A stretch of 64,000 nt of DNA, taken from Bacillota bacterium (GTDB lineage Bacteria > Bacillota > Clostridia > Peptostreptococcales > Anaerovoracaceae). The position numbers and the translations under genes were made by a program. The notes beneath the pieces are model-generated. The model did no database searches. It saw only the letters and a program-made list of their open reading frames with translations, and had not been told where the DNA came from. Location of the stretch: NCBI GenBank assembly GCA_017459895.1, contig JAFUCA010000006.1, positions 124,001-188,000 of the forward strand. Reading direction: 5' to 3'. This document shows positions 2,574 to 64,000 of the stretch, in pieces (position 1 is the stretch's first letter; the number at the start of each line of letters is the position of its first letter).

Positions 2574-2883
2574 GATCCGAGGTTTCGGACAGAAACGCAT
2601 CCAGACAATTGGAATCCGACGAAATCAGCGCCCGCTTATCCGCGGGCGCCATTTTCTTGATGGCAGCTTCCCGCTTCAGGGCGGCGCTTCGGTCGGAGAT
2701 GAGTTCCAGATAGACCGGGGTGACCGGCAGGCGGCTGCGGGTATACTTGCCGCCCTTTCCCGACTGATGGGATGCCAGCCTTTGCATGAAGTCGTTGGTC
2801 CAGCCGGTATAGAGGGAGCCGCCGGCGCAGCGGAGCATGTATACGGCGGGCTGTCCTTTGAGTGTTGCGATGTCCGTTTTCAT
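2566..2883 (-). CDS. GIY-YIG domain protein, UPF0213/YhbQ type
   Basis: A 105-residue single-domain GIY-YIG protein. VYMLRC and LYTGWTND supply the two-part GIY-YIG signature, followed by the conserved GGKYTRSR segment and [12 protein letters not shown], where the family glutamate sits. Length agrees with the YhbQ/UPF0213 family, thought to act on damaged or branched DNA, though the cellular role is not firmly known. It runs convergent to the preceding surface protein, overlapping its 3' end by 8 bp. The coding strand contains ATGCAAAGGCTGG, one copy of the window-wide 11-mer. Confidence 0.85.
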
Positions 2884-2983
2884 GAGAAAAATTATATCAC
2901 ACCCCGGGAAACTATGTTAGAATATTTGTGTATGGGCAAAAGCGGTGCGGGCCGCAGGAAATAGAATAATAAAGGAGAAATGT

Positions 2984-4783
2984 ATGAACAGAAACATTAC
3001 CGACACCATCGTCTATATCGGTGCCAACGATCACGACATCGACCTGTTCGAGGGTCAGTACATCGTTCCGAACGGCATGGCCTACAACTCGTATGCGATC
3101 ATCGATAATAAGATCGCGATCATGGATACCATCGATCAGAGAAAGACCGATGAGTGGCTGCAGAACATCGAGCTGGCGCTGCGGGGCGTGAGCCCGGATT
3201 ACCTGGTGGTGCAGCACATGGAACCGGACCACTCCGCGTCGATCCAGGCCTTCATGGAGAAATATCCCCAGGCCACCGTGGTCGGCAACCGCAAGACTTT
3301 CAAGATGATCGCTCAGTACTTCCCGGACATCAAGATCGGCAAGTCCGTCGAAGTGGCTAACGGCGACGTGCTGGATCTGGGCAAGCATAAGCTGAACTTT
3401 GTGTTCGCGCCCATGGTTCACTGGCCGGAGGTCATGATGACCTACGAGCCCACGGAGAAGATCCTGTTCTCCGCGGACGGATTCGGCAAGTTCGGCGCGC
3501 TGGACGTGGACGAAGACTGGGCCTGCGAGGCGAGAAGATATTACTTCGGCATCGTCGGCAAATACGGCGCACAGGTGCAGGCGGTTCTGAAGAAGGCCGC
3601 GGCCCTGGAGATCGAGAAGATCCTGCCGCTGCACGGACCGGTGCTGGAGGAGGATCTGGGATACTACATCAACCTGTATGACATCTGGTCCAGCTATCTG
3701 GCGGAGACCGACGGCATCTTCATCGCCTACACCTCCGTCTACGGACACACAAAGGCTGCCGCGGAAATGCTGGCGGCAGAGCTGGAAGCCCGGGGTGTGC
3801 CGAACGTGGAGATCACTGACCTGGCCAGAGAGGACTGGGCGGAGGCAGTGGAGGACGCGTTCCGCTACGACAAGCTGGTCCTGGCGACCACCACATACAA
3901 TGCAGAGATCTTCCCCTTCATGCGTCAGTTCATCGATCACCTGACGGAGCGGAACTTCCAGAAGAGAACCGTGGCCTTCATCGAAAACGGCACCTGGGCA
4001 CCCACGGCGGCCAAGGTGATGAAGGGTATGTTCGAGGGAAGCAAGGACATTGCCTTTGCGGAGAACAACGTGACGATCCTGTCCGCGCTGAACGAAGAGA
4101 GCACCGCGCAGCTGATGGCGCTGGCGGACGAGCTGGCGGCCGATTACATCAAGCCGGAGACCGACGAAGAGGAGAAGAAGATCGATCCGACCGCGCTGTT
4201 CAAGATCGGCTACGGTATGTACGTCATCACATCCAACGACGGCAAAAAGGACAACGGCATGATCGGCAACACGGTGGCGCAGGTCTCCAACGACCCGTCC
4301 CGCCTGATCGTCGGCATCAATAAAGCCAACTACTCCTGCGATATCATTTCGGGGAGCGGTGAGATGAACGTCTGCACCCTGAACGAGCAGGCGCCCTTCC
4401 AGGTGTTCGAGCAGTTCGGGTTCCAGTCCGGACGGAATGTGAATAAGTTCGCGGACTTCGATCACTTCGACCGCAGCGGCAACGGCCTGCCGTACCTGAA
4501 CAAGTACGCCAACGGCTATATGTCACTGAAAGTGTTCGATACCGTCGACACCGGCAGTCACATCATGTTCTTCTGCGATATCGTGGAGAGCGCCGTGCTG
4601 AACAACGTTCCGAGCATGTCCTACGATTACTACCGGAGCAACGTCAAGCCCCGTCCGGCGGAGGAGGTCAAAGGCTGGGTATGCGATGTCTGCGGATACG
4701 TCTACGAAGGCGAGAACCTTCCGGAAGACTTCATCTGTCCGCTGTGCAAGCACGGAGCGAGCGACTTCACGAAGATGGGATGA
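2984..4783 (+). CDS. Flavodiiron protein fused to flavin reductase-like and rubredoxin domains
   Basis: 599 residues. Start chosen at ATG 2984 because AAAGGAG lies 6 bp upstream; an in-frame ATG at 2945 lacks a site. An N-terminal metallo-beta-lactamase-like diiron domain carries H78-x-E80-x-D82-H83, H146, D165 and H217, the family's complete ligand set. A flavodoxin domain follows (FMN loop near 248-258), then a flavin reductase-like domain (about 405-555) and a C-terminal rubredoxin with C567/C570 and C585/C588. Flavodiiron proteins reduce O2 or NO to water or N2O in the cytoplasm; the built-in rubredoxin and flavin domains would pass electrons within one chain. In Moorella the flavin reductase-rubredoxin part (Hrb) is a separate protein, so this is a fusion of partners. 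Confidence 0.92.
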   Translation: MNRNITDTIVYIGANDHDIDLFEGQYIVPNGMAYNSYAIIDNKIAIMDTIDQRKTDEWLQNIELALRGVSPDYLVVQHMEPDHSASIQAFMEKYPQATVVGNRKTFKMIAQYFPDIKIGKSVEVANGDVLDLGKHKLNFVFAPMVHWPEVMMTYEPTEKILFSADGFGKFGALDVDEDWACEARRYYFGIVGKYGAQVQAVLKKAAALEIEKILPLHGPVLEEDLGYYINLYDIWSSYLAETDGIFIAYTSVYGHTKAAAEMLAAELEARGVPNVEITDLAREDWAEAVEDAFRYDKLVLATTTYNAEIFPFMRQFIDHLTERNFQKRTVAFIENGTWAPTAAKVMKGMFEGSKDIAFAENNVTILSALNEESTAQLMALADELAADYIKPETDEEEKKIDPTALFKIGYGMYVITSNDGKKDNGMIGNTVAQVSNDPSRLIVGINKANYSCDIISGSGEMNVCTLNEQAPFQVFEQFGFQSGRNVNKFADFDHFDRSGNGLPYLNKYANGYMSLKVFDTVDTGSHIMFFCDIVESAVLNNVPSMSYDYYRSNVKPRPAEEVKGWVCDVCGYVYEGENLPEDFICPLCKHGASDFTKMG

Positions 4784-4795
4784 GAGTCCTAGGCC

Positions 4796-5293: not shown

Positions 5294-5331
5294 AGCCGCC
5301 TCCTGAGAGCATTATATCACACCGGAGCGCA

Positions 5332-5359
5332 TTGACAATTGTCAGAATAGTGATAAAAT
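5332..5359 (+). promoter_or_regulatory. Promoter for the NhaC-family gene
   Basis: TTGACA (5332-5337), 16-bp spacer, TAAAAT (5354-5359). The -35 region overlaps the palindrome GACAATTGTC (5334-5343), which also occurs near the -10 box of the surface gene at 34403. Confidence 0.6.
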
Positions 5360-5415
5360 TATTGTGTCATCATTTCAAAACGTTATTGTCGTTGATACGA
5401 CGAAAGGAGGTAACT

Positions 5416-6958: not shown

Positions 6959-6977
6959 CAGTTGAATTAAATGCACG

Positions 6978-7567: not shown

Positions 7568-8401
7568 ATGCTTACGATCGGCTGTCATTTATCATCGGCG
7601 GAGGGATTCCTTCACATGGGAGAGGAGGCGCTGTCCATCGGCGCCAATACCTTCGCGTTCTTTACCCGCAATCCCAGGGGCGGCAGGGCGAAGGCGATCG
7701 ATCCCGTGGACGCGCAGGCGCTGCGCTCTCTTCTGGAGGAGAATCACTTCGGCCGACTGGTGGCCCATGCGCCCTACACCCTGAATCCCTGCTCCGGCAA
7801 AGCGAACGTCAGAGAATTCGCCAGCCTTTGCATGAGAGAAGATATGGAGCGGATGGAGCATCTGCCGGGAAACTATTACAACTTCCACCCGGGCAGCCAC
7901 GTGGGGCAGGGCACGGAGCGCGGCATCGAGATGATCACGCAGCTGCTCAATGACATTATCACCCCGGAGCAGTCCACGATCATTCTTCTGGAGACCATGG
8001 CGGGCAAGGGCAGTGAGATCGGCGGCCGCTTCGAGGAACTGAAGGCCATCATCGACGGGGTGCGGCATGCGCAAAAGCTGGGGATCTGCATGGATACCTG
8101 CCACGTCAGCGACGGCGGCTACGATATCATCTCTGATCTGGACGGGGTGCTGGAGGAGTTCGACGAGGTCATCGGGCTGGAGAAGCTGCACGCTCTGCAC
8201 ATCAACGACAGCAAGAACCCGCCGGGATCCCGCAAGGACCGCCACGCGAAAATCGGGGAGGGGACGATCGGAACGGATGCCATCGCAGCCTTCATCAATC
8301 ACCCCAAATTAAAAGGGCTTCCATGCATTCTGGAAACCCCCAATGAACTGGATGGCTACGCCCGGGAAATCCGGCGGTTGCGGGATCTCTGCCAGGGATA
8401 A
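7568..8401 (+). CDS. nfo: Endonuclease IV (AP endonuclease)
   Basis: 277 residues, the usual length of Nfo. Family landmarks are all present: GCHLS near the N terminus, FFTRNPR, HAPYTLNPC, NFHPGSH, ILLETMAGKG, CMDTCHV, ALHINDSK, DRHAKIGEG and the C-terminal ILETPNE. These supply the three-zinc site that cleaves DNA 5' of abasic sites in base-excision repair. Start at ATG 7568 with AGAGGAAAG upstream. It stands alone, convergent with the TSCPD gene. A copy of the 11-mer word (7821-7831) is read here as ASLC. Confidence 0.95.
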   Translation: MLTIGCHLSSAEGFLHMGEEALSIGANTFAFFTRNPRGGRAKAIDPVDAQALRSLLEENHFGRLVAHAPYTLNPCSGKANVREFASLCMREDMERMEHLPGNYYNFHPGSHVGQGTERGIEMITQLLNDIITPEQSTIILLETMAGKGSEIGGRFEELKAIIDGVRHAQKLGICMDTCHVSDGGYDIISDLDGVLEEFDEVIGLEKLHALHINDSKNPPGSRKDRHAKIGEGTIGTDAIAAFINHPKLKGLPCILETPNELDGYAREIRRLRDLCQG

Positions 8402-9081: not shown

Positions 9082-10869
9082 TCAGTCTGCCTGCGGGATG
9101 GTTTCCACCAGGCCCAGGAATAAGGGGGCACCGGTCTGGGTGTCGATCAGCGCGTAGACGAAGGGGCGGTCCAGGTAGACCCGCTTCGGTTCGGGCGGGT
9201 TCAGGATCGCGCCGGACTTGTCCATGATCACCGCAGTGCAGGCCGCTGCCTTGGTGCCGTCCTGATCCAGCTCGATGTGGGTCTTGTGGAGCACATCGCT
9301 GATGTGAAGAGCCAGGGTCGGATCGGTCTCATCCGCAAGGAACATCTTCGAAAAATCCGCCGCTTCGGAGAAGGCCAGAGGCATCCCCATGCCGATCAGA
9401 ACCGGCTTCAGGGAGGCGCCGTAATCGTAGCTGAACTCGGGGAGTCGGAACTGGACACCGCCCTTCGGAGTGATGCGGTTCTTCCACGCGCTGGTGAAGT
9501 CTGCGCCGGAAAGCGTCATCGCGTAATCTCTGGCGCTCATTCCCTTCGGCGGAAGCAGTCCCAGAAAAGCGGTGCTGCCGTTTCCGTAGGGACTGAGGAA
9601 TCCCTGGCCGCCGCTCTTAAACTCCAGGTAGACACTGCCCCGGCCCTCCAGCATCGTGACCTTCTGTGCCGCCTTGCCGGCGGGGGTGAACATCCGGTCG
9701 CTGTCCTTTTGGAGCACCGTCAGCGGGTGGGGCCACCGGCCTTCGAAGGACACCGCGTTGATCAGAAGGAAGCGGGCATCCGCGGACAGGCCCTCGGCAG
9801 GATCGATGATCTGCCGGATCATGTTCCGGGTCTGATTATAGACCCACTTGTTTATGTCCGCAACCGTCGCGTCATTAAAGGGCGCTTCAAAGAACGAGGC
9901 GTTGAGGTAGTGCTTGTTCAGCTGCAGGAACTGGGGATCGGCCGTGAACTCCGAATTCTTTTTCGCCCAGATGGAGTTGTTGTTCGTGTAGATGAAGTCC
10001 TGGCCGGAGCTCAGGCGGGCGTGCAGCTTCCACAGAGACTCGTTCAGGGCGTCCATCAGAAGCGCGGCCCCGCTGGCCGCATCGTTCTTGTCGGCTGCAT
10101 CGTTCTCGCCGGCCTCACCGCTCTCACCGCTCCCGCCGGCCACATCGTTCTCGCCACTCTCGCCGTTCTCACCGGCCTCACCGCTCTCGCTGCTCCCGCC
10201 GGTTCCCGTCAGCGTGGCCAGCATTTGCTGCTGCGTGGTGCCTGCCGCGCCCCCCGCGGTCATCGCGAGGGCGGTCATGACGGAGTCCGGTGAGACCAGA
10301 ACGTTCGGTGAAGCGGGATCCTCCCGCAGGGTCGCCTGCAGCAGCCGGAAGGAAAAATCCGTGTACGCCGCGGTGAATCCATCGGTGACGGCCGTGTCCG
10401 CCGGAGCGGCAAAGGGAAATCCCGCGGCGAGATCCACAGATGTGTCGCTCAGCTCCAGGACCTCCGGCTGCGGCGGCTTCGGGACGGGAGCCGGCGTCTT
10501 CGCCTTCTTCACCGTTACCTTGCATTTCAGAGTCTTTTTGCCGACCTTCGCCTTGATCCAGCAGCTGCCGGTCTTCTTGCCGGCCTTCAGGACCACCGTC
10601 TGGCGGTATTTGCCGGACTTCTTCTTAATGGCGACCCGCTTCTTGCTGGCGGTCTGCCACCTGACCTTCTGATGGGCGTTTTTCACGCTCAGCTTCACCG
10701 TGGCTCCGGGCTGGAGGGTGATCTTCGTCTTTGTCAGCTTCACCTTCGATGCTGCAAAGGCTGGACTGTCCCCTCGAAGGCCGGCGAATCCGAACGCGGC
10801 GACCAGAAGGATCAATGTCAGGGCGAGCGTGCGCAGGAGCGTTTGTTTCAGCGATGTTGTTCTTGTCAT
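9082..10869 (-). CDS. Secreted serpin with an N-terminal Ig-like domain
   Basis: 595 residues from ATG 10869, chosen because GAGGAG sits 8 bases upstream. A signal peptide ends in SPAFA, where the coding DNA is the 11-mer CCAGCCTTTGC. Residues about 38-120 form a lysine-rich Ig-like domain. The rest is a serpin: SPNVLVSPDSVMTALAMTAGGAAGTT, NAVSFEGRW, the hinge GTKAAACTA and the C-terminal DRPFVYALIDTQTGAPLFLG. The likely P1 region is around MDKSG, so the target protease is not obvious. A Gly/Ser/Glu/Asn low-complexity insert of about 45 residues interrupts the early helical region. Bacterial serpins are suicide protease inhibitors, often of host or co-resident proteases; secretion fits that role. 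Confidence 0.9.
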   Translation of the reverse strand: MTRTTSLKQTLLRTLALTLILLVAAFGFAGLRGDSPAFAASKVKLTKTKITLQPGATVKLSVKNAHQKVRWQTASKKRVAIKKKSGKYRQTVVLKAGKKTGSCWIKAKVGKKTLKCKVTVKKAKTPAPVPKPPQPEVLELSDTSVDLAAGFPFAAPADTAVTDGFTAAYTDFSFRLLQATLREDPASPNVLVSPDSVMTALAMTAGGAAGTTQQQMLATLTGTGGSSESGEAGENGESGENDVAGGSGESGEAGENDAADKNDAASGAALLMDALNESLWKLHARLSSGQDFIYTNNNSIWAKKNSEFTADPQFLQLNKHYLNASFFEAPFNDATVADINKWVYNQTRNMIRQIIDPAEGLSADARFLLINAVSFEGRWPHPLTVLQKDSDRMFTPAGKAAQKVTMLEGRGSVYLEFKSGGQGFLSPYGNGSTAFLGLLPPKGMSARDYAMTLSGADFTSAWKNRITPKGGVQFRLPEFSYDYGASLKPVLIGMGMPLAFSEAADFSKMFLADETDPTLALHISDVLHKTHIELDQDGTKAAACTAVIMDKSGAILNPPEPKRVYLDRPFVYALIDTQTGAPLFLGLVETIPQAD

Positions 10870-15604: not shown

Positions 15605-17395
15605 ATGAGAGACAGAGAACTGCCGGTCAATCACAAGGACTATTCACAGCCGATCATGAAGGTGTTTCTGAGCTACTTCCGGCCGCATTGGAAGCTGTTC
15701 GCGCTGGATCTGTCCTGCGCGCTGGTGGCGTCGCTGATCGATCTGGCCTTTCCGCTGGTCGCCCGCCACGGGATGTACCACCTGCTGCCGGACCGGGCTT
15801 TTGAAGCGTTCTTCATGGTGATGGCTGTTTTTGTGGTAGCGTTCCTTCTGAAGGCGCTCCTGCAGTTCATCATCACCTACTGGGGGCACATGTTCGGCGT
15901 GCGGGTGGAGGCGGATCTGCGGGAGGATCTGTTCGTTCACATCCAGTCTCTGGATTTCGAATTCTTTGACCGCAACCGAACGGGCCAGCTTTTGTCCCGC
16001 ATGACGGGGGATCTGTTCGAGATCACGGAGCTGTCCCACCACGGGCCGGAGGATCTGTTCATCGCATCGGTGACGATCATCGGGGCGATCATCATCATGT
16101 TCACCATCCAGTGGAAGCTGGCGCTGCTGATCCTGATCCTGATCCCGCTGTTTCTTCTGATCGTGCTGCTGTGCCGCCGGAACATGATCCTGACGTCGCG
16201 GCAGGTCAAGGTGAAGCTGGCGGAGATCAACGGGGAGATCGAATCGGGCCTCTCCGGGATCCGTACGTCGAAGGCCTTCGCCAACGAGAGGACCGACTAC
16301 GGCAAATTCGCGGAGGCCAACGAGCAGTTCAAGACGGCCAAGTGCGACAACTACAAGGCCTTCGGCCGGTTCAATTCGTCGCTGGAGTATTTCATGAGCA
16401 TCATGCCGGTGGCGGTCATGGCCTTCGGCGGATGGCTGATCATGCGGGACCAGATGAACTACGCGGATATGATCACGTTCTATCTGTACATCAGCACGTT
16501 CATCAACCCCATCCGCAAGCTGGGCAACTTCATGGAGATCTTCATGAACGGATGGGCGGGGCTGACCCGGTTCATCGGAATCATGCGCACGAAGCCCCAG
16601 GTGGTGGACGCGCCGGATGCCCAGCCTTTGCAGGATGTGCAGGGGCGGATCGATATGGAGGGAGTCTGGTTTGCCTACGAGCCGGCGGATGAGGATGCGC
16701 CTCAGGATGTGCTGCGGGGGATCGACCTGCACGTGCGTCCGGGAGAGACGGTGGCGATCGTCGGACCCTCGGGGGGCGGCAAGACGACGCTGTGCCAGCT
16801 GATTCCCAGATTTTATGATGTGGACGGGGGCAGCATTTCCATCGACGGGACGGATGTGCGGCAGATCGCGTGTCAGTCCCTGCGAAAGAACATCGGAATC
16901 GTGCAGCAGGATGTGTTCCTGTTCGCCGATACGATCGCGGAGAACATACGGTACGGCAACCCGGAGGCGGACGAGGCGCAGATCCGCGAAGCTGCAAAGG
17001 CTGCCGAGATCTTTGATGATATTGCGGCGATGCCGGAGGGCTTTGATACCTATGTGGGAGAACGGGGCGTGCGGCTGTCCGGCGGTCAGAAGCAGCGGGT
17101 CTCCATCGCGCGGATCTTCCTGAAGAATCCGCCGATCCTGATCCTGGACGAGGCGACATCGGCGCTGGATACGGTGACGGAATCCAGGATTCAGGGGGCG
17201 TTTGACAAGCTGGCGGAGGGCAGGACCACGATCATCATCGCCCATCGCCTTTCGACGATACGCAATGCGGACCGGATCGTACTGATCGATGACGGGCAGA
17301 TCCGGGAGGAAGGAACGCATGAGGAGTTAATGCGGAGGAACGGGCGCTACGCGGAGCTGACACGGTACAGCGAAACGAGCGTGCGTCAGAGATAA
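15605..17395 (+). CDS. ABC exporter, fused membrane and ATPase domains
   Basis: 596 residues from ATG 15605, picked because the likely promoter lies just upstream; earlier in-frame starts would precede the transcript start, but the ribosome-binding site (AAGGA, distant) is poor. Six membrane segments (about 25-310) are followed by a nucleotide-binding domain with Walker A GPSGGGKTT, signature LSGGQKQR, Walker B ILILDEATS and switch IAHRLST. It is a half-exporter of the MsbA/LmrA type working as a homodimer or heterodimer; no partner half is adjacent. The word CCAGCCTTTGC (16621-16631) is read here as QPLQ. gadB follows after 42 bp and may be co-transcribed. Confidence 0.9.
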   Translation: MRDRELPVNHKDYSQPIMKVFLSYFRPHWKLFALDLSCALVASLIDLAFPLVARHGMYHLLPDRAFEAFFMVMAVFVVAFLLKALLQFIITYWGHMFGVRVEADLREDLFVHIQSLDFEFFDRNRTGQLLSRMTGDLFEITELSHHGPEDLFIASVTIIGAIIIMFTIQWKLALLILILIPLFLLIVLLCRRNMILTSRQVKVKLAEINGEIESGLSGIRTSKAFANERTDYGKFAEANEQFKTAKCDNYKAFGRFNSSLEYFMSIMPVAVMAFGGWLIMRDQMNYADMITFYLYISTFINPIRKLGNFMEIFMNGWAGLTRFIGIMRTKPQVVDAPDAQPLQDVQGRIDMEGVWFAYEPADEDAPQDVLRGIDLHVRPGETVAIVGPSGGGKTTLCQLIPRFYDVDGGSISIDGTDVRQIACQSLRKNIGIVQQDVFLFADTIAENIRYGNPEADEAQIREAAKAAEIFDDIAAMPEGFDTYVGERGVRLSGGQKQRVSIARIFLKNPPILILDEATSALDTVTESRIQGAFDKLAEGRTTIIIAHRLSTIRNADRIVLIDDGQIREEGTHEELMRRNGRYAELTRYSETSVRQR

Positions 17396-20515: not shown

Positions 20516-20539
20516 GCAAAGGCTGGACGGGCCGGACGT

Positions 20540-34354: not shown

Positions 34355-34402
34355 GCGTGCAAAGGCTGGCGTAAGCGGCGGAAAGACGAAGGAGAGAAGA
34401 CT

Positions 34403-43278: not shown

Positions 43279-43312
43279 GCAGTGCTCCAGCCTTTGCGAA
43301 AAAAACAACCGA

Positions 43313-46165: not shown

Positions 46166-47026
46166 ATGAAGAAGAAGAGAAAGATATGGATCGCATGCAT
46201 TGCGGCGCTGGTCATCGCGGCGGCCTTCATGCCGGTCAGCGCGCTGACCGCAACGCCAGCCTTTGCAGCGGGGAAGAAGTATGACCTGCCTACGAAGGTG
46301 ACGTATTACTATTACCAAAAAAAGAAAAAGAAGTGGAAGCTGTTAGAGGAGCAGCACAACACTTATGAAAAGGGGAGACTGAAGGAAATATACCTTTATG
46401 ATGGGAAATATGAAGATGTTAAGGATCGTGACGATCTTGACGACATTAGTTTGCATGTCACATATACATACAAGACCCGGGCAAACGGGAAGCTGTCAAA
46501 AGTCGTAGTGCGCGACCGCGGTGAAAAGAAAACATTTAATTTTAACAAAAAGGGAAAACTGAAGAATGTAGATGGGTGGAAGGTCAAGCACAAGAAGGGC
46601 TGGATTACCAAACTCGGCGACCGAAAATATAAGTATTCCTTCAAAAAGGGTAAGCCGGTCAAGATCAAATCAACATGGGATGGTCGTGGAGGCTATGTCA
46701 AGTTCAATAAAAAGGGACTGGTGACATTTGAAAGACAAACAAAGCGTAGTAAGTCGGACAAGATAGATGGAACCGATGTAAAAGATCGCTATAAATACAA
46801 GTTCGACAGTAAGGGACGTGTTTCCACCATCATCTATAAAAGTTCCGGATCGCTGTCAAAAGTGAAACTCGAATACGGTCCGGAAGTTAAAACAGGATCC
46901 TACAAGCGTTGGCTCGCGGTAATATACAGGTGTGAAGTCAATATGGGCGGGGGTGAACTTGATATCGTACAGGAGGTCACATCTGACGAACCGACGTTCT
47001 TTGATCCGTTCATGATGGATATATAG
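46166..47026 (+). CDS. Secreted protein with short YD-like repeats, paralog 2
   Basis: 286 residues from ATG 46166 (AGGAGG 9 bases upstream; GTG 46148 is an alternative). Signal peptide and first mature residues (PAFAAGKKYDLPTKVTYY) match paralog 1 almost exactly, then the sequences diverge while keeping the NGKLSKV and FNKKGKL repeats. Its upstream 40 bp, from TGTACAAAGGCTGG to the ATG, nearly repeat those of the next gene. Confidence 0.7.
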   Translation: MKKKRKIWIACIAALVIAAAFMPVSALTATPAFAAGKKYDLPTKVTYYYYQKKKKKWKLLEEQHNTYEKGRLKEIYLYDGKYEDVKDRDDLDDISLHVTYTYKTRANGKLSKVVVRDRGEKKTFNFNKKGKLKNVDGWKVKHKKGWITKLGDRKYKYSFKKGKPVKIKSTWDGRGGYVKFNKKGLVTFERQTKRSKSDKIDGTDVKDRYKYKFDSKGRVSTIIYKSSGSLSKVKLEYGPEVKTGSYKRWLAVIYRCEVNMGGGELDIVQEVTSDEPTFFDPFMMDI

Positions 47027-50768: not shown

Positions 50769-50863
50769 CTGCCCCAGCCTTTGCAGGTGTAGTGCTTGAC
50801 AAAGCCTCCAAGAAAAAGTACAATTTATGGTACAGAAAAGTGTACGAATCAGGAGGCGAGCAG

Positions 50864-51207: not shown

Positions 51208-51649
51208 CCCATTTCTTACCCGCCGAGATAGCTGTCACAGCGCAGCTGAAAGACGGAACGAAACGAAAGTGAAATTTAGCTGTTTTGATGATGACGGAAC
51301 GAAACACCGCAGTTTCTTTCGCTGGTTCGATCCATAGGCTCTGGCTCGGTCCAATCGAACTCATAAACCATAAATAATCGGGACAAATCCCATTCGCTGA
51401 TGCTTGAAATCCAGGATTTGTCCTAAAAGATCCTAAGATATACGAGGTTTCGATCCGCATGCATCAAAAGTGCCTATAATGTCGTTTCTATTGGACGGAG
51501 TCCGGCAGGCCATGGCATCTCGCAGGCGATGTGTGAACAGCAGCAGCTCCAGCCTTTGCATGCCCCGAAGTATAAGTTTCTGTTCCCTTCCCTGCGGCAA
51601 AGGAGTATCATAGAACCAGAGAATCGGTGCTATGAAATGGAGGGAAACT
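51208..51649. other. Gap with one inverted repeat and the 11-mer word
   Basis: No gene found. GGACAAATCC (51381-51390) and GGATTTGTCC (51414-51423) form a unit with 33-bp offset like those of the arrays. GGAACGAAAC occurs twice (near 51257 and 51293). TATAAT-like TATAAT at 51475-51480 may be a promoter of the hydantoinase gene. CCAGCCTTTGC lies at 51549. Confidence 0.5.
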
Positions 51650-53047
51650 ATGTCAACATTGATCAGAAACGGAATCATCGTCACGGCGGACGGTGAGCAG
51701 AAGGCGGACCTGTACATGGACGGCGAGAGCATCGTAGCCATCGGAGAGGGACTCGCGTATGAAGCGGACGAGGTGATCGATGCGGAGGGCAAATACATCC
51801 TGCCCGGCGGCGTCGACCAGCACGTCCATTTTTCGTTCACGTATAAGGGCAGCAAGACCCGGGGGTTTGAGACGTCCAACGCGGCGGCGGTGGGCGGCAC
51901 TACCACGCTGATCGAGTTTGTCAATCAGGAGAAGGGCTGCGGGCTGGTGGAGACCATCGACGACTATCGCAGGACCGACGCGGAGGGCATCGCCATGGTG
52001 GACTACGCGTTCCACAGCGTTATGACGGATCCCAGGGACGAGGTGATCGAGGAGATTCCGGATCTCGCAAAGGCTGGATATCCGACGATGAAGCTGTTCA
52101 TGGCGTACAAAGGCCAGTTTTTCCATGCGGACGATGACGCGATCCTGAAGGCGCTGCAGAAGGGCAAGGAAGCCGGCGTTACGGTGATGGTCCACGCGGA
52201 GAACGCGGATATGATCGACGTGCTGACAAAGCAGCTGATCGCCGAGGGCAAGGTGGGCCCGTATTATCACGCGGTCAGCCGGCCGCCGGTGGTGGAGGCG
52301 GAAGCGACCCGCCGGGCGATCTATCTGGCGGAGCTGGCGGATGCTCCGCTGTACGTGGTTCACGTCACCTGTAAGGAAGCCCTGGCGGAAGTCAAGGCGG
52401 CTTATCAGAGGGGACAGCGGGTCTTCGGAGAAACCTGCGCTCACTATCTGGTGCTGGATGAGTCCGACCTGGGCCGCCCGGGATTTGAAGGCGCGAAGTA
52501 CGTCTGCTCGCCGGCCCTGCGCACGGAAGAGCACAGGGAGGCGCTTTGGGAAGCCGTCGACCGCAAGTGGCTCAATGCCATCAGCTCCGATCACTGCGGG
52601 TTCGACTACGCCGAGCAGAAGCACATGGGATACGGAGAGGGCAAGTCCTTTGCGGACATCCCCAACGGGGCACCGTCCCTGCAGAACCGTCTGAACATCC
52701 TTTGGACTTACGGCGTGTGCGAAGGCAGGATCAGCCGCAGCCGTCTGGTGGATCTGTATGCGACCACCCCGGCCAAGGTCAACGGCCTAGTGAAGAAGGG
52801 CCAGCTGGCGCCGGGCTTCGACGGCGACGTGGTCATCTTTGATCCGTCCTATGAAGGCTTGATCTCGGCAGAGACCAACCTGGAAGGCGTGGATTATTCT
52901 CCGTTTGAGGGCTTCGCTCAGAAGGGCCGCCCGGAGACCGTCTTCCTGCGGGGACAGAAGATCGTCGAGGACGGCAGGTACATCGGTCAGAAGGGCCAGG
53001 GCCGGTTCATCCCCGGGGAGCCCTTCGGCGCAGCGTATAAGCGGTAG
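51650..53047 (+). CDS. hydA: Dihydropyrimidinase / D-hydantoinase
   Basis: 465 residues from ATG 51650 (GGAGGG upstream; the open frame starts 18 bases earlier). Metal ligands appear as GVDQHVHFSF, PTMKLFMAYKGQF (the lysine that is carboxylated), VHAENAD, VHVTCKEAL and SSDHCGFDY. The enzyme opens the ring of dihydrouracil, dihydrothymine or hydantoins. The N-carbamoyl amino-acid amidohydrolase downstream completes the pathway to the amino acid. The word GCAAAGGCTGG (52067) is read AKAG. Confidence 0.92.
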   Translation: MSTLIRNGIIVTADGEQKADLYMDGESIVAIGEGLAYEADEVIDAEGKYILPGGVDQHVHFSFTYKGSKTRGFETSNAAAVGGTTTLIEFVNQEKGCGLVETIDDYRRTDAEGIAMVDYAFHSVMTDPRDEVIEEIPDLAKAGYPTMKLFMAYKGQFFHADDDAILKALQKGKEAGVTVMVHAENADMIDVLTKQLIAEGKVGPYYHAVSRPPVVEAEATRRAIYLAELADAPLYVVHVTCKEALAEVKAAYQRGQRVFGETCAHYLVLDESDLGRPGFEGAKYVCSPALRTEEHREALWEAVDRKWLNAISSDHCGFDYAEQKHMGYGEGKSFADIPNGAPSLQNRLNILWTYGVCEGRISRSRLVDLYATTPAKVNGLVKKGQLAPGFDGDVVIFDPSYEGLISAETNLEGVDYSPFEGFAQKGRPETVFLRGQKIVEDGRYIGQKGQGRFIPGEPFGAAYKR

Positions 53048-54664: not shown

Positions 54665-56449
54665 ATGGCATCGGATCGTTTATATCAGCTGGCAGTGGAA
54701 TTCCGAAAGACCAGCCTTTGGAAGAGGATGTTGGAGGATCAGCTGTTTGCCGTAAGCCTTGACGGTGGACGAACCGGATATGTGAGCGTCATGGGGCTTC
54801 TGGGAGAGCACCGGGCGCTGGCGGTGTACGTCGGTGAAGAAGGTCTGCGAAGCTATCACATCCTGCGGGAGAATGGAACGGACAGCCTCATCGGCTACAA
54901 TCCGGTGGTCCAGAACCACGCCAGCATTCAGGTATCGTTTGAGGCGAAGGATGATCTGCCGCCGGAGGATCTGGCGGAGGCCAGAGACTTCGCGAAGCGA
55001 AACGGAGTCCGGTTCGCCGGGAAGAACGCGTTCCCGATGTTTTTTAAGGCGGAGCCGGGGTACATGATGACCTCCGATCTCACAGAGCAGGACGAGGCGG
55101 ACCTGGCAGCGGCGCTGGAGGCGGCGATCGAGGTGGCGAAAGACGAGACACTCAGCTATCATAATCCCGGGGATTTCACCGGAGTGATCCGAACCACGAA
55201 GCAGATCGTACTGATAGCAAAAGAAGGGGACGCCTATCTGCGGCGCAGTATCCCGCTGCCGCAGGTGCCGGTCTATGAACCGCCGGAAGGGGACGCCTGG
55301 GATGAGCTGGCAGCGGCGCGGATCCGTAAACTGTCAAAGCGGGGAACCTGGCAGGCGGGACTGATGACGACTACGGTGCCCACCGGCTGGGAGCATTCGG
55401 ACCAGAAGATCCTGCCGGTGATCCTCGTTGCCATCGATACGACGATGGACGAAGCGATAAATATCCGTCCGGTCGCCCTCTATGAGAGTCGCACGAATGT
55501 GATGCTGAATATGCTGATGGAGGCGCTCCGGGAGCGGGGCAGCCGGCCGGCGAAGATCGAGGTAGAGGACGAATACACCGAGGCGCTGCTGCGGAAGTGG
55601 TGCGGTGATCAGAAGATTCGGCTGGAGCGAAAACAGGATCTGGAGGACCTTCAGGAAGCCCAGATGGGACTGCAGATGCATCTTCGAAGCGCTGCAGGCG
55701 GAGCCGGTCCCGAAGAACAGCTGCAGGAGCTGGCGATGCTCATCGAGAGTCTCCTTTCCCTGCCGATGGATATGCTGACGGACCTGCCTCCGGAAATGAC
55801 GCGGATGCTGGACGGTGTCGAACAGGAGCTCAGCGGACTTCCGGTGGTGCCGGAATGGCTGCTGGAGCAGGTGGAGGAGCTGAACGAGCGGATCCGGCAG
55901 GCGCAGACCAATGCTTCTGCAAAGGCTGGAGCTCCCGGATGGGCGCCGATCCGCGGCGGGAAGGCCAAAAGCCGCATCAAAAGGCCTTCCGTGGTGAGTC
56001 CTGCGCGGGCGCCGCATCTGTGCGTGCTCAGCGTGTCTCTGGGTACCGGCTGCTACCGCCACATTCAGGTGCCGGAGAATATCCTGCTGGCGGAGCTGGC
56101 GGAGGTGATCCTCTGGGCCTTTGATTTCATGAATGATCATGCCCATGCCTTCTTTATGGACAATCGCGCCTGGAGTCAGGCGGACTGCTACTACAGTCCC
56201 GGGATCGACGACTACGCGCCGTCCACCGAAGAATACCGGCTGCAGGATACGGATCTTTGGGAGGATAAGAAATTCAAATTCATCTTCGATTTCGGGGACG
56301 AATGGACCTTCCAGTGCCGGGTGCTGCGGATCTCGGACGAACCGGCGGAGGGGGAAACCATCGCGAACGCCGAGATCGTCCGGCGAAAGGGCGAGCCGCC
56401 GGCGCAGTACGGCGTGCCCTGGTTTGATGAAGACGAATGGGAGGACTGA
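54665..56449 (+). CDS. Plasmid pRiA4b ORF-3 family protein, multidomain
   Basis: 594 residues; GAAGGAG 6-7 bases before ATG 54665. The N-terminal 180 residues (DRLYQLAVEFRKTSLWKRML, GYVSVMGLLGEHRALAVYVG) and the middle (about 215-330) match uncharacterised domains often seen together. The C terminus (about 445-594) is the pRiA4b ORF-3 domain, related to an IS1096 TnpR-like protein (MNDHAHAFFMDNRAWSQADCYYSP, FIFDFGDEWTFQCRV). The name does not mean it is a transposon protein here. Function unknown. The next gene starts one base after its stop. Confidence 0.75.
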   Translation: MASDRLYQLAVEFRKTSLWKRMLEDQLFAVSLDGGRTGYVSVMGLLGEHRALAVYVGEEGLRSYHILRENGTDSLIGYNPVVQNHASIQVSFEAKDDLPPEDLAEARDFAKRNGVRFAGKNAFPMFFKAEPGYMMTSDLTEQDEADLAAALEAAIEVAKDETLSYHNPGDFTGVIRTTKQIVLIAKEGDAYLRRSIPLPQVPVYEPPEGDAWDELAAARIRKLSKRGTWQAGLMTTTVPTGWEHSDQKILPVILVAIDTTMDEAINIRPVALYESRTNVMLNMLMEALRERGSRPAKIEVEDEYTEALLRKWCGDQKIRLERKQDLEDLQEAQMGLQMHLRSAAGGAGPEEQLQELAMLIESLLSLPMDMLTDLPPEMTRMLDGVEQELSGLPVVPEWLLEQVEELNERIRQAQTNASAKAGAPGWAPIRGGKAKSRIKRPSVVSPARAPHLCVLSVSLGTGCYRHIQVPENILLAELAEVILWAFDFMNDHAHAFFMDNRAWSQADCYYSPGIDDYAPSTEEYRLQDTDLWEDKKFKFIFDFGDEWTFQCRVLRISDEPAEGETIANAEIVRRKGEPPAQYGVPWFDEDEWED

Positions 56450-56450
56450 C

Positions 56451-56726: not shown

Positions 56727-57365
56727 TTATTTTTTCCGGCAGATCAGCAGGATCTCCGGCGGATCGTGCATCTGATTGGGCATGCTGATGTAACTTGTGT
56801 GCCAGCGCTGCGCATCAAGCCCTGAGGCAAACTCCAGCAGCGCCTGTTTTTCTGCGGCGCCCTCCGGATGGCCGCTGTACATGGTCAGACACAGCAGGCC
56901 GTCCGTTTTCAAAAGGTCCAGGCTGTCCCGGACGGCGGCGAGGGTCGTTTCGGTAAGGGTCGTGCAGGATTTGTCTCCCCCGGGCAGATACCCCAGATTA
57001 AACACGATGGCAGAGGCGAAGCCGCATTCGCCGCAGGCCGGATCTCCGTCTTCGGCAGAGGTCACATCCGGCTGCAGATCCCGGAAGTATTCCTTCATAT
57101 GTTCATGGCCGAGGCAGGTTAGGACAATGGTGTCCTCCGGCTCATCACCGCAGGCAAAACCAGCCTTTGCGAGAAGGTCCCGGGTGCGCTCCACCGCCTG
57201 CCGCTGAAGGTCAAAGGCGAACAGACGCCCCGGCTGCATCTGCGCGAGGCGCAGGGTATCCCGGCCGCCTCCGCAGGTCGCGTCGATGACGATATCCCCC
57301 GGCCGGACATAGGCGCGGACGATATGCATCGCGAAATCCGTTGTGCGCTGAATCAAACTGCTCAT
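56727..57365 (-). CDS. SAM-dependent rRNA methyltransferase, YtqB type
   Basis: 212 residues from ATG 57365. VIDATCGGGRDTLRLA is the SAM-binding loop; VFNLGYLPGGDKSCTTLTETT and LCLTMYSGHPEGAAEKQALLEFA are typical of the PF06962 family (YtqB), assigned to rRNA or tRNA methylation. The longer frame to 57926 is excluded by its promoter, whose -10 box ends seven bases before the ATG, suggesting a leaderless message. Divergent from the DUF2520 gene. The word CCAGCCTTTGC (57160) lies in the coding region as AKAG. Confidence 0.85.
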   Translation of the reverse strand: MSSLIQRTTDFAMHIVRAYVRPGDIVIDATCGGGRDTLRLAQMQPGRLFAFDLQRQAVERTRDLLAKAGFACGDEPEDTIVLTCLGHEHMKEYFRDLQPDVTSAEDGDPACGECGFASAIVFNLGYLPGGDKSCTTLTETTLAAVRDSLDLLKTDGLLCLTMYSGHPEGAAEKQALLEFASGLDAQRWHTSYISMPNQMHDPPEILLICRKK

Positions 57366-57488: not shown

Positions 57489-58349
57489 ATGAACATTGGA
57501 TTTATCGGCGCAGGCAAGGTGGGCTGTTCCCTGGGCAAGTACCTGAGCACCCACGGAGCGGCGGTCGCAGGGTATTTTGATCAGAACCGGCAGGCGGCAG
57601 CAGAGGCGGCGCAGTTTACGGGATCTCGCAGTTACGAGGATATGCAAAGGCTGGCGCGGGACGCGGATCTGATTTTCCTGACGGTGCCCGACGGGCTGAT
57701 CCCGCAGGTGTTCCGGCAGCTGTGCGCAGAGAGCGGTGACCTGCTGGCGGGGAAATTCCTCTGCCACTGCAGCGGCAGCATTTCCTCCCGGGAAGCCTTT
57801 GCCGGAATCGAGGAGACCGGGGCCTTCGGCTACTCGGTGCACCCGCTGTTTGCCGTCAGCGACCGGTTTGAAACCTACAAGGAGCTGGGAGGGGCGTTCT
57901 TTTCCCTGGAGGGTGAACCATCGCATTTAGACGATATGGCTGCGTTCCTGAAAGGGGCGGGACTGACTTTTCAGGTGATCGACCCGGCGTCGAAGACAAA
58001 ATACCATCTGGCGGCGGTCTACGCCAGCAATCTGATCTGCGGACTGATCGGACAGGCGAGCCAGCTTTTGCAGGAGTGCGGCTTCGCGCCGGAGGACGCA
58101 CTGAAGGCGCTGACGCCGCTGATCGCAGGAAACGTGGAGCACGCTCTGGCCGCAGGCCCGGTGCAGGCGCTGACCGGCCCGGTGGAACGGGGGGATGTGA
58201 CCACGCTGCAAAAGCACCTTTCCGTTTGTGAAAGCGAGGACGACCGGCAGCTGTATCTGCTGCTGTCGCGAAAGCTGCTGGATATGGCAAAGGAAAAGCA
58301 TCCGGAGCGGGATTACCGGGAACTGGAGGTTTTTCTTTACAAACGATAG
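57489..58349 (+). CDS. NAD(P)-binding Rossmann protein with DUF2520, pantothenate cluster
   Basis: 286 residues; ATG 57489 follows GAAGGAGG at good spacing. N-terminal [16 protein letters not shown] is a dinucleotide-binding motif, the C terminus (about 135-286) is DUF2520 ([44 protein letters not shown]). The fold is like 6-phosphogluconate dehydrogenase or ketopantoate reductase. Position next to panB and panC suggests a ketopantoate reductase in place of PanE, which is inference from context. The word GCAAAGGCTGG (57644) is read QRLA. Confidence 0.8.
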
Positions 58350-58517
58350 CAACCGTGATACACTTCTCACGTTGGACGGTATTCCGCAGGAAACTGTACC
58401 CGGAGAAATCAGACAAAAACGCAGTACTCCCAGCTTTTGCAGCGGCAGCAGACAGTGCGCCGCATGCGCGTGGAGGCCCCTGCGTGCCTGGAGCAGATTG
58501 CCTGCGACATTCCCGTT

Positions 58518-59571: not shown

Positions 59572-59601
59572 GTTGCCCAGCCTTTGCGCGAGGAGACCAC
59601 G

Positions 59602-60468: not shown

Positions 60469-60484
60469 AGATCGTAAGCAGATG

Positions 60485-60522: not shown

Positions 60523-60592
60523 CTGCCATACCGGGCGATATGCACTTTTCCGGCCGGCCTACCCCTCAGTCACCGCCATAATCCCGGCCGGC

Positions 60593-61048: not shown

Positions 61049-63343
61049 ATGACGAAGACGAAGAAGATACTGTACCCACTGCTGATTCTGGCCCTGGTGG
61101 TGTCCTTCACCCCGGTGCTGAATTTCGCAGGGCTGGGCGCGGACAATGCCTATGCGGCGGCGAAGCTGAAGGCGCCAAAGAGCGTCAAGGTCAAGGTCGT
61201 TTCCCAGACTGCGCTGAAGGTCAGCTGGGGAAAGGTCAAGGGGGCTAAGGGCTATACCGTATATCAGAAGAAGGGCGGCAAGTTCAAGGCAATCAAGACC
61301 GTGAAGGGAAAAACCGTTACCGTTAAAAACCTGAAGGCCGGGACCAAGTACACCTTCTACGTGAAGGCATTTAAGAAGAAGGGAAAGAAGAAGGTCTACG
61401 GCAAGACCTCAAAGAAGGTAACCGGCAAGACGAAGGCAGCTGCGGCGGCACCCACCGCACCGGCAGCACCGGCGAAACCGGATCCGGCAGTCACAGCGGT
61501 CTGCAAGAACGGACAGTTTGTCGGCACGAAGCTGGACTCCGGCGTGATCTCCTATAAAGGAATCCCCTATGCGAAGGCTCCGACCGGCGATCTGAGATGG
61601 AAGGCGCCGGAGGCACCGGACGCCAGCGACGCAGTGATTCAGGCGAAGGAATTCGGCCATCCGGCGGTGCAGGCCAACTACCCGCTGCCGGATCCCGCAC
61701 AGGGAAAGGAAGCAGTCAGCTGGGTCTTTGACGGCAGCAAGTACACCGTCAGCGAGGACTGCCTGACCCTGAATGTATGGACGAAGGACAATAACCCGGC
61801 AAAGAAGAAGCCGGTCATGGTATGGTTCCACGGCGGCGGATTCGTGGTCGGCTCCACGACCAACGACGCGTATCAGCTGGAGAACTTCGCCAACAACGAG
61901 GACATGGTCATGGTGTCCTGCAACTACCGTCTGGGCATCTTCGGTTCCGCGGATCTGTCGGCAGTTCCGGAGGGTGAGAAGTATAAGACAGAAGATTTCA
62001 AGCAGTCGCAAAACCTGGCTTTGCTGGATGACATCCGGGCGCTGGAATGGATCCAGGAGAACATCGCAGCCTTTGGAGGAGATCCGGGGAATGTTACGAT
62101 CTTCGGAAATTCCGCAGGAGCGGCGGACATCACCATCCTGACCACAGCAAACAATGAAAAGATCCAGAAGGGCGAGCTCTTCCAGCGCGTGATCGCGCAG
62201 TCCGGCAGCCTGTCCCTGTGCGTACCGGACGATGGTGCCAAGTACACAGCAGAGAGAACCGGTGAGATCGAGCAGTTGATCGAACGCGTCAAAATCCTGG
62301 GATACGATGTCAAAAATCTGGACGACCTGATGGCAGTTCCGGAGGAGACGCTGATCCAGGCATACACGCTGTATCCCACCAACAAGGGCAACCTCGTTGA
62401 TGTATCCTTCTATGATCCGACGGGTGAGGAATTCATCGCCGGCGCCAGCCTTTGCTATGACAACGTATACACCCCGGTGTTCAACGATGATGCGGGACTC
62501 CTGCCCAAGGATCCCTATGATCTGGTGAAAGCCGGTTACGGCAAGAATATCGACGTGCTCTACGGAACCAACCAGAATGAGTGGAACTACTGGATCTGGG
62601 AGATGGCGGAATTCGATCCCATGGCAGACCATCCGGTCCCGCTGATGGATGCGGATTATGAGGACTATGCTTTCGGAATGATTCCGCTGCAGAAGATGGC
62701 AGGACTGATGGAGGCCATCAAGGATGACGAAGGACTTCAGAAGAACGTTCAGGATTATCTGCAGCTGGAGAGAGTCGCTGGCCTTGAGAATGAATACGTG
62801 AAGGAACGGACCGAGGCCGAGTGGAAGGCACTGGTGTCCAGGATCTACATGATGCCGGAAGATGCGGTGACGGAGGATATGATCGCCGGCTTCAAGGCGA
62901 ATGAAGCGGATGTCTGGAAGAATACCGAGCTTCAGAACGACCTGGTGTTCCGCGCGCCGGCAGCGAAGGCGGCAGCCGATCACGCAGCGGCAGGCGGCAA
63001 GGGCAAGACCTACATGTACTACTGGGCTAAGGAGACCGATCAGAAATACCAGAAGGCCGGACACGCTTCCGAGATCTCCTATGTGATGGGCAATCCGAAT
63101 CACACCTGCTTCAGCGGAACCGTCGACCCGGCACTGTCGAAGCAGATCCAGGATATGTGGGCAAACTTCGCACGTACCGGTGATCCGAGCACGGAAGATG
63201 TGCAGTGGGTTCCCTATGAGGGCACGAACCGGGCGACAATGACGATCGATCTGGACAATGACGGCGCGTTTAAGACCGTGAACAATCTCTATGACGATCA
63301 GCTTGAGCTCATCCAGCCGCTGCTGAAGTACCACCTGAAGTAG
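61049..63343 (+). CDS. Secreted type-B carboxylesterase with N-terminal fibronectin-like domain
   Basis: 764 residues; AAGGAG upstream of ATG 61049. Signal peptide (to about 37, NAYAAAK), a lysine-rich fibronectin-like domain (about 40-130), an Ala/Pro linker, and a carboxylesterase type-B domain. S355 in GNSAGAAD is the nucleophile; H672 in GHASEISYVMG is the catalytic His; FHGGGFVVGS is the oxyanion hole. The enzyme would cleave esters outside the cell. A sole secreted esterase with the same module as the adhesin-like proteins suggests a shared cell-wall-binding role for that domain. Confidence 0.88.
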   Translation: MTKTKKILYPLLILALVVSFTPVLNFAGLGADNAYAAAKLKAPKSVKVKVVSQTALKVSWGKVKGAKGYTVYQKKGGKFKAIKTVKGKTVTVKNLKAGTKYTFYVKAFKKKGKKKVYGKTSKKVTGKTKAAAAAPTAPAAPAKPDPAVTAVCKNGQFVGTKLDSGVISYKGIPYAKAPTGDLRWKAPEAPDASDAVIQAKEFGHPAVQANYPLPDPAQGKEAVSWVFDGSKYTVSEDCLTLNVWTKDNNPAKKKPVMVWFHGGGFVVGSTTNDAYQLENFANNEDMVMVSCNYRLGIFGSADLSAVPEGEKYKTEDFKQSQNLALLDDIRALEWIQENIAAFGGDPGNVTIFGNSAGAADITILTTANNEKIQKGELFQRVIAQSGSLSLCVPDDGAKYTAERTGEIEQLIERVKILGYDVKNLDDLMAVPEETLIQAYTLYPTNKGNLVDVSFYDPTGEEFIAGASLCYDNVYTPVFNDDAGLLPKDPYDLVKAGYGKNIDVLYGTNQNEWNYWIWEMAEFDPMADHPVPLMDADYEDYAFGMIPLQKMAGLMEAIKDDEGLQKNVQDYLQLERVAGLENEYVKERTEAEWKALVSRIYMMPEDAVTEDMIAGFKANEADVWKNTELQNDLVFRAPAAKAAADHAAAGGKGKTYMYYWAKETDQKYQKAGHASEISYVMGNPNHTCFSGTVDPALSKQIQDMWANFARTGDPSTEDVQWVPYEGTNRATMTIDLDNDGAFKTVNNLYDDQLELIQPLLKYHLK

Positions 63344-63478
63344 GCAGAACCGAATTATTCAGAGGTTTTGATAATAGCACACAGACACAGCCGAAGGCTG
63401 CAGGACAATCCCCCCCTGTGGCCTTTTGGCGTTTGCATTTCCTTCGGACCGTTGGTAAACTTGAGAGGGTGATGGCTT

Positions 63479-64000
63479 ATGATGAACGCGTCTTTTTTCA
63501 TATATCTGTTTGACAGCTGCATCGGGGTGGCGATCGTAGCCCTGCTTCTGCTGATCTTTCGGGTACAGGCGGACCGGGCCGCGTGGAAAGTGCCTCTGAT
63601 GCTCTTTGTCGTGATCACATTCCTGCTGTGTCTGCTGTACTTCGGAGAACGCTTCTATACGGACAACTACGAGACAAAAGGCGGCTGGTCCCTGGGCGTG
63701 AGGACGGTGAATCTGCTGCTGGGCTTCGGCCAGATCTTTGTCTGGTGCTGGTATCTTCGTGCAAAGGCTGGCGTCACTGAGCTTTGGATCCGCCGGGGGA
63801 CCGGCATCGTTCTGATCAGCATCCTCGCGGTTCAGCTGGTGATCTACATTGTCCTGATGGACGAGCACTTTTTCATCGCTTCCGAAGGAATCCGAAGCGC
63901 GGCAACCGGGCTGTATATTCTGTTTATGATCCTTCAGCCGGGGGTCCTGATCGGCTATATGATCCTCGTCCAAAAGAGGGTCGAGGATAAAGAAGCCAGG
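63479..64000 (+). CDS. Multi-pass membrane protein, 3' end outside the window
   Basis: No stop before the window end; 174 codons from ATG 63479 (63482 is equally possible, GAGAGGGTG upstream). At least five hydrophobic segments in the visible part (YLFDSCIGVAIVALLLLIF; VPLMLFVVITFLLCLLYF; TVNLLLGFGQIFVWCWYL; TGIVLISILAVQLVIYIVLM; TGLYILFMILQPGVLIGYMIL). Such N termini are found in membrane-bound response regulators and histidine kinases in Clostridia, but the part that would tell is missing. The word GCAAAGGCTGG (63761) lies within, read AKAG. Confidence 0.7.
   Translation, partial: MMNASFFIYLFDSCIGVAIVALLLLIFRVQADRAAWKVPLMLFVVITFLLCLLYFGERFYTDNYETKGGWSLGVRTVNLLLGFGQIFVWCWYLRAKAGVTELWIRRGTGIVLISILAVQLVIYIVLMDEHFFIASEGIRSAATGLYILFMILQPGVLIGYMILVQKRVEDKEAR

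Follow-up and report, generated by a model that had tools for sequence, protein, structure and literature searches.

A genome-wide 11-base word with dialects in a Bacillota genus, a candidate DNA uptake sequence

Introduction

What keeps one 11-base word, GCAAAGGCTGG, in dozens of copies along a stretch of bacterial chromosome? The stretch in question (the window) comprises 64,000 nucleotides from a Bacillota bacterium of the Clostridia (Peptostreptococcales; Anaerovoracaceae) and corresponds to positions 124001-188000 of contig C34 (JAFUCA010000006.1) in assembly GCA_017459895.1, which has 2,495,951 bases in 55 contigs and is 93% complete and 5% contaminated. This genome, called the own genome below, is G000 among the 49 genomes of its genus that were compared. 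A first-pass annotation, made from the letters of the window, had read the word as an uptake signal or some other recognition word in a Gram-positive lineage. Dialects in relatives, conservation at homologous sites and the presence of competence genes strengthen that reading. There is good support for regarding GCAAAGGCTGG as a real recognition sequence that is maintained and has dialects, and its reading during DNA uptake is what we infer. We consider it fairly probable that GCAAAGGCTGG and its dialects are DNA uptake sequences of a Bacillota lineage, independent of those in Neisseriaceae and Pasteurellaceae.

Results and Discussion

Abundance and sequence preferences of the word

Recounting reproduced the 31 exact copies in the window, 15 on the plus strand and 16 on the minus strand, and the GC content of 57% given by the first-pass annotation. 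Its figure of about 19 one-mismatch copies was too low, as 30 accompany the exact ones. The 61 exact and one-mismatch copies compare with a mean of 1.66 and a maximum of 5 in dinucleotide-shuffled sequence. GCAAAGGCTGG is the top-ranking 11-mer of the window and is followed by the overlapping TGCAAAGGCTG with 27 copies; the exact copies extend from 2775 to 63771 (Table 1). The word is non-palindromic, differing from its own reverse complement, and the strands were therefore counted separately. Across the whole assembly there are 300 copies on the plus strand and 301 on the minus strand (601 in total) versus 1 and 2 copies of the reversed word, an excess of about 200-fold. The annotation had named two outcomes that would speak against its reading, counts elsewhere in the genome close to chance and enrichment limited to one gene family or one strand; neither was observed. 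Contig C14 (L111, 9,132 bases) duplicates genes of C34 (L109) in the same assembly, reflecting assembly redundancy or a strain mixture, and the count of 601 may be slightly inflated because of this repetition.

In 521 kb, there is a site of the nine-base form CAAARGCTG every 1.2-1.8 kb. Regular spacing was considered and rejected, since the coefficient of variation is 0.96-1.07 versus 0.98-0.99 for random points.

The tolerated changes were tallied in a 464-kb sample of the own genome, consisting of the window and 20 pieces of 20 kb. One-mismatch variants number 57 at position 11, 37 with G changed to A at position 6 and 33 at position 1, and there is no variant or a single one at each of positions 3, 4, 5, 8 and 10. 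The position 6 variant, GCAAAAGCTGG, is the most frequent single mismatch in this sample. Such a position-dependent pattern looks like the recognition profile of a protein. Among 138 copies with full flanks, T precedes the word in 96, and little else stands out beyond two weaker preferences, T at position -4 in 65 and C six bases after its end in 83. The tolerated changes at positions 6, 11 and 1, together with the T at -1, suggest that the recognised form is approximately (T)GCAAARGCTGG.

Conservation between sister genomes

Alignment of the own genome with its sister G011 covered 136.6 kb at 81.7% identity (39 high-scoring segment pairs of at least 300 bases and at least 70% identity, with overlapping hits dropped). 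At the homologous sites in G011, 20 of 30 words are identical, four have one base changed, five have two or more changed and one falls at a gap. The reverse count, starting from G011, likewise finds 20 of 30 intact. Among flanking 11-mers, 20 of 174 are intact from the own side and 23 of 174 from the G011 side (Fisher p 5.5e-10 and 3.2e-9), and 16.8% of all 11-mers are intact between the two genomes. Given 20 of 30 words intact versus 20 of 174 flanks, the words keep fixed positions, survive far better than their surroundings and vary mostly by point substitution. The DNA uptake sequences (DUS) of Neisseria are similarly well conserved at homologous sites: 71% are exactly conserved at a mean identity of about 85%, and their flanks are slightly more divergent (Treangen et al., PMC2397512).

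Dialects among relatives

Within the genus, GCAAAGGCTGG is found 601 times in the own genome, 337 times in G011, 311 in G001, 308 in G010, 234 in G070 and 29 in G012, and between 0 and 19 times in the other 43 genomes. Word counts in 20-kb samples from 20 other species pointed in several of them to another spelling, GCAAAGGCA, which reaches 622 copies genome-wide (G008) versus 39 for its reversed control and has the core GCAAAGGC in common with GCAAAGGCTGG. When both spellings are summed, 33 of the 49 species carry 63-401 copies per Mb and 16, here called word-free, carry 13-37 per Mb, a split that uses rounded genome sizes and has two borderline cases, G033 and G032, at the lower end of the positives. 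The reversed words used as controls for GCAAAGGCA and TGCAAARGCA include CpG, which makes the match imperfect, and the word-free species may be slightly enriched (30 per Mb versus 1 in G024). The GCA-type copies of the 33 word-positive species are balanced between strands (5452/5326). Counting in related genomes, which the first-pass annotation had proposed, uncovered dialect spellings of the word.

Finer spellings exist as well, including GCAAAGGCAA in G003, GCAAAGGCA followed by A or G in G062 and G017, and, in G013 and G018, a 3' end that is less strict; 60 kb of G062 hold 15 copies of TGCAAAGGCA. In G070, CAAAGGCAGG and CAAAGGCTGG share contigs, with CAAARGCAG and CAAARGCTG both present on each of five sampled pieces, and the mixed spelling of this genome, GCAAAGGCWGG, is intermediate. 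In a family-wide draw of 247 genomes, 238 of them outside the genus, the highest density of GCAAAGGC beyond the genus is about 200 per Mb (G255), and the word-positive genus members drawn have 419, 472 and 342 per Mb. Across 198 genomes of the order, in a draw that contained no strong GCA-dialect species, TGCAAARGCA peaks at about 51 per Mb (G190).

A quick ComEC tree without bootstrap, limited to the 30 of 49 species for which loci were returned, places seven of eight word-free species in one clade (approximate likelihood-ratio test 97), the exception being G034. In the same tree the GCTGG-rich G000 and G011 group with the GCA species G006, G025 and G035 and the mainly-GCA G012.

Alternative explanations

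Could the word simply be a consequence of protein coding, with common peptides or codon usage creating it? The 464-kb sample contains 368 genes, called with a simple codon-score script, and 139 exact copies, of which 105 are coding and 34 are intergenic; non-coding DNA makes up 13.3% of the sample. Copies occur in all six phases (AKAG 31, QRL 24, PAFA 19, QPL 17, SLC 9, KGW 5), and the fact that AKAG and PAFA are the most frequent frames in their respective orientations is what a coding effect has in its favor. Synonymous-codon shuffling within each gene, however, left a mean of 1.21 words and at most 4 in 100 runs versus the 105 observed, and the coding explanation is rejected on this result. 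The word is also denser in gaps (3.8-4.4 per 10 kb, depending on gap type) than in genes (2.54 per 10 kb) among 242 exact copies in 865 kb, a count that leaves 6 copies at piece ends unassigned. The window genes that carry it belong, where a family was found, to unrelated families (alanine dehydrogenase, HTH, amidohydrolase, esterase and Big_2) rather than to a single one. Thus, the earlier remark that protein need not explain the word holds, and we see virtually no chance that coding is the cause. It is also very improbable that the word is a by-product of mutation, whether a short repeat element, the footprint of an insertion or the outcome of a mutational bias. Hundreds of identical short copies are what such an origin might leave behind, but the flanks are little conserved apart from the preferences described above, homologous sites that lack the word differ mostly by substitutions (one gap per 30 sites in each direction), and a mutational bias would not preserve two thirds of the words while so few neighboring 11-mers survive.

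Other recognition words of the chromosome must be weighed too. Chi sites, used by AddAB or RecBCD, and words read by FtsK, such as those of the KOPS or SRS type, are likewise enriched chromosomal words that can change between lineages. Chi and KOPS are short and oriented with replication, whereas GCAAAGGCTGG has no orientation bias: beyond the even genome-wide count, 117 copies are leading and 125 lagging in the 865 kb, the GC skew within each piece serving to tell the strands apart. The first-pass annotation had argued from the missing strand bias against such signals, and we reject them on the same ground. Moreover, the word spans 10-12 bases with a dialect-specific 3' end and exceeds the known Chi lengths of 5-8 bases, and enrichment in only 33 of 49 genus members does not suit recombination and segregation, which are universal. 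A signal of this kind is therefore improbable. The main rival, which we consider unlikely although not negligible, is a site for a nucleoid or chromosome-organising protein or some other mark unrelated to uptake, such as a defence self-mark or a methylation-linked word resembling HIP1. Strand symmetry, near-random spacing and strong conservation would suit any recognition word. Most known global nucleoid words, however, are palindromic or short and GCAAAGGCTGG is neither, 11 specific bases are too many for the usual methyltransferase, and a species-wise change of spelling around a fixed core has its best precedent in DUS. HIP1 of cyanobacteria, GCGATCGC, resembles GCAAAGGCTGG in being a short word of high genome-wide frequency, and has been discussed together with orphan methyltransferases; it is a palindrome, unlike GCAAAGGCTGG, which in addition has dialects (PMC4390886). 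Overall, a DNA uptake sequence suits the evidence better than Chi, KOPS, methylation, a repeat element or protein coding.

Comparison with known uptake sequences

The closest likeness is to the DUS of Neisseriaceae, which are non-palindromic words of 10-12 bases in many copies, with dialects that keep an invariant core and follow the species tree (PMC3630211). The two spellings in G070 parallel S. muelleri, which mixes two DUS dialects (PMC3630211). The copy number is lower here, with 601 in 2.5 Mb versus 943-5,918 in DUS genomes (PMC3630211). Other differences are that the phylum is another one, the words show no visible likeness, the uptake role here is a proposal, and no ComP, the minor pilin that reads DUS in Neisseriaceae, is recognisable. 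The uptake signal sequences (USS) of Pasteurellaceae offer a second parallel, as they have a nine-base core at about one per kb (PMC5397411) and variants across the family (PMC1626085). The USS is a different word in a different phylum, and its long AT-rich extension (PMC1852404) is not seen around GCAAAGGCTGG. The receptor for USS was unknown before the minor pilin ComN was predicted for that role (PMC12616744).

In its excerpt, the same report names only two families with uptake words (PMC12616744). For Veillonella, an excerpt of another states that no word of at least 10 bases is present at least 100 times (PMC5397411), and DNA recognition by Clostridioides difficile type IV pili is the subject of a paper whose abstract, at its start, names no enriched word (PMC9556784). 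Among the matches listed for a literature search on GCAAAGGCTG, none concerned uptake by title, and among those listed for uptake sequences in Firmicutes, Bacillota or Clostridia and for over-represented words, none described this one. Judged from those literature searches only, the word has not previously been in print.

Competence genes and a pilus-like operon

The com genes that the annotation had proposed to look for are present, and the genome has a pilus-like operon as well. In the own genome, full-length ComEC/Rec2 (TIGR00361) and a ComEA helix-hairpin-helix (HhH) protein (TIGR00426) score above NCBIfam cut-offs, the longer comE model TIGR01259 falls below its cut-off (115.5 versus 152.35), and DprA is encoded. 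The ComEA-like protein has an N-terminal hydrophobic stretch, as judged by eye, and an HhH repeat. Across the genus, comEC was found in 34 of 41 genomes and dprA in 45 of 49. Matches to HHH_3 occur in 47 of 49, many of them in frames of about 750 amino acids that are not ComEA, and the two genomes without a match, G003 and G035, are both word-positive. Proteins of ComEA size are present in the own genome, four other word-positive genomes and two word-free genomes, with one cut by a contig end.

The operon lies at about 332,060-336,890 of C34 (L109:7062-11891) and encodes a transglutaminase-like protein, a T2SSF protein, four pilin-like proteins and a PilT/PilU-family ATPase. Each pilin-like protein has one hydrophobic segment as judged by eye, one of them carries DUF4860, and each is present in 77-79 of the 80 loci (L129-L208) that were fetched with the operon ATPase. 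This arrangement is conserved in many Clostridia. We know of no name for it, and no literature search for it was made.

Fourteen of the 33 word-positive species have a type A ATPase and none of the 16 word-free ones does (p 0.0017, by a statistic that ignores kinship), and a distant type B occurs in 13 genus members, five of the 33 word-positive and eight of the 16 word-free. Neither type was found in the GCA or mainly-GCA species G006, G012, G025 and G035. The ATPase of GCTGG species groups apart from that of GCA species, and the latter stands beside Mogibacterium-labelled loci; these labels make Anaerovoracaceae the probable family. Forcing the two together was rejected by an approximately unbiased (AU) test (p 4.5e-47), which used a 40-row subset with one long-branched row and a group defined only once the first tree was known. 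Because the GCTGG ATPase does not group with the GCA ATPase, the operon has probably been exchanged horizontally in the clade of the window. Separately, G010 has a second ATPase, of GCA-dialect type, on the 3-kb contig C27 (L344), which holds two GCA-type words and no GCTGG-type word and is possibly a contaminant. The genus members G003, G035, G009 and G066 have a further T2SSE protein that is PilB-sized (E below 1e-120).

How far uptake accounts for the word

Several results weigh against an uptake role. DNA uptake by Gram-positive bacteria is thought to be blind to sequence. Competence genes also occur in word-free species, and the operon follows the word imperfectly among the 49 species: neither ATPase type was found in 22 genus members, 14 of them word-positive, including G021 (96% complete), G030 (98%) and G006 (91%). 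The four pilin-like proteins have isoelectric points of 4.1-5.2 when the first 35 residues are disregarded, and this acidity sets them apart from a basic DNA receptor. The operon ATPase is PilT/PilU-like (411 bits, cut-off 319) and not ComGA (120.6, cut-off 300), and no PilB-sized motor was found in the own genome in a first look in which 31 of 49 candidates were scored. Moreover, comparable word enrichment is absent from the 4-21 kb available for each of L131-L206, which make up 76 of the 80 loci retrieved through the ATPase. Scarcity of the word in lineage-specific DNA did not appear as a clear depletion in segments unaligned between the sisters. The own genome has 9 words in 30.7 kb of unaligned DNA versus 29 in 133.7 kb aligned, and G011, where the copies in unaligned DNA are few, has 2 in 16.3 kb versus 28 in 133.9 kb. 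Finally, close word pairs number 21 versus 20.9 expected. Pairs at chance level give no sign of words built into terminators, a use that is common though not defining in DUS and USS, and a hairpin-terminator role is rejected.

Nevertheless, a DNA uptake sequence seems to us the best explanation, and a mechanism can be sketched. Some DNA-binding part of the competence machinery would prefer double-stranded DNA that carries the recognised form given above, and this preference would cause DNA of the bacterium's own kind to be taken up and recombined more often. Words would arise by point mutation and would then be spread and kept by biased uptake and recombination. The spellings of relatives, which keep the core but end differently on the 3' side (GCAAAGGCA followed by A or G, or GCAAAGGCWGG), would act as dialects. 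The reader may be ComEA, one of the pilin-like proteins encoded in the PilT-type operon, or some other protein.

A more ambitious proposal is possible, although we lean against it as a whole. The word might represent a third independent family of DNA uptake sequences and the first in Bacillota, with dialects that changed stepwise from GCAAAGGCA[AG] through GCAAAGGCWGG to GCAAAGGCTGG, and in the clade of the window the change of dialect might have accompanied horizontal replacement of the pilus-like operon. If uptake is indeed the function, self-recognition would have evolved three times or more, in this case with a different cell envelope, which we infer to be of the Gram-positive type in this host. 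It would also suggest that natural transformation is active in the gut and rumen. The 33 word-bearing and 16 word-free species of a single genus offer a natural comparison for finding the receptor.

Features of the window and additional observations

Table 1. Exact copies of the word and its tolerated variant (G to A at position 6) in the window. Exact copies come from an exact-match search and our own gene calling, with the family given where one was found; variants come from a one-mismatch search.
Element	Position	Strand	Context
GCAAAGGCTGG	2775..2785	-	gene 2566-2883 (-)
GCAAAGGCTGG	7821..7831	-	gene 7616-8401 (+)
GCAAAGGCTGG	10754..10764	+	intergenic
GCAAAGGCTGG	16621..16631	-	gene 15605-17395 (+)
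GCAAAGGCTGG	20516..20526	+	intergenic
GCAAAGGCTGG	21603..21613	+	gene 20644-21747 (+)
GCAAAGGCTGG	24024..24034	-	gene 23251-24900 (-)
GCAAAGGCTGG	24950..24960	+	intergenic
GCAAAGGCTGG	24971..24981	+	intergenic; tandem with copy 24950..24960
GCAAAGGCTGG	26058..26068	-	gene 25196-26164 (-)
GCAAAGGCTGG	27015..27025	+	gene 26327-27712 (+), HTH protein
GCAAAGGCTGG	31352..31362	-	gene 30023-32233 (+)
GCAAAGGCTGG	33259..33269	-	gene 32247-33419 (-), alanine dehydrogenase/PNT family
GCAAAGGCTGG	34359..34369	+	intergenic
GCAAAGGCTGG	37791..37801	+	gene 36931-37980 (+)
GCAAAGGCTGG	38993..39003	+	gene 38007-39089 (+)
GCAAAGGCTGG	40348..40358	+	gene 39416-41509 (-), sigma-70 region 4 protein
GCAAAGGCTGG	43287..43297	-	intergenic
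GCAAAGGCTGG	45095..45105	+	gene 44210-45268 (+)
GCAAAGGCTGG	45382..45392	-	gene 45295-46089 (+)
GCAAAGGCTGG	46256..46266	-	gene 46166-47026 (+)
GCAAAGGCTGG	47165..47175	-	gene 47078-49675 (+), Big_2 domain protein
GCAAAGGCTGG	50774..50784	-	intergenic
GCAAAGGCTGG	51549..51559	-	intergenic
GCAAAGGCTGG	52067..52077	+	gene 51650-53047 (+), amidohydrolase
GCAAAGGCTGG	55919..55929	+	gene 54728-56449 (+)
GCAAAGGCTGG	57160..57170	-	gene 56727-57329 (-)
GCAAAGGCTGG	57644..57654	+	gene 57489-58349 (+)
GCAAAGGCTGG	59577..59587	-	intergenic
GCAAAGGCTGG	62445..62455	-	gene 61049-63343 (+), carboxylesterase family
GCAAAGGCTGG	63761..63771	+	gene 63479-64000 (+)
GCAAAAGCTGG	8071..8081	+	
GCAAAAGCTGG	38810..38820	-	
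GCAAAAGCTGG	40930..40940	-	
GCAAAAGCTGG	58061..58071	-	
GCAAAAGCTGG	58430..58440	-	

In loci of other bacteria that carry the same operon, the candidate words examined were mainly tandem repeats (L154, L164, L177 and L187) or clustered repeats (L131 and L155). The locus L131, from a Lachnospiraceae-labelled metagenome-assembled genome, has repeat clusters at 630-1030 and 5598-5804 around TTTTCGGCA and CGCAATGCT in both orientations, and these resemble a repeat family of the locus more than a word spread over the whole genome. The window also encodes a serpin, a member of a protease inhibitor family, in this gut bacterium (9082-10743, minus strand; PF00079, 3.8e-68).

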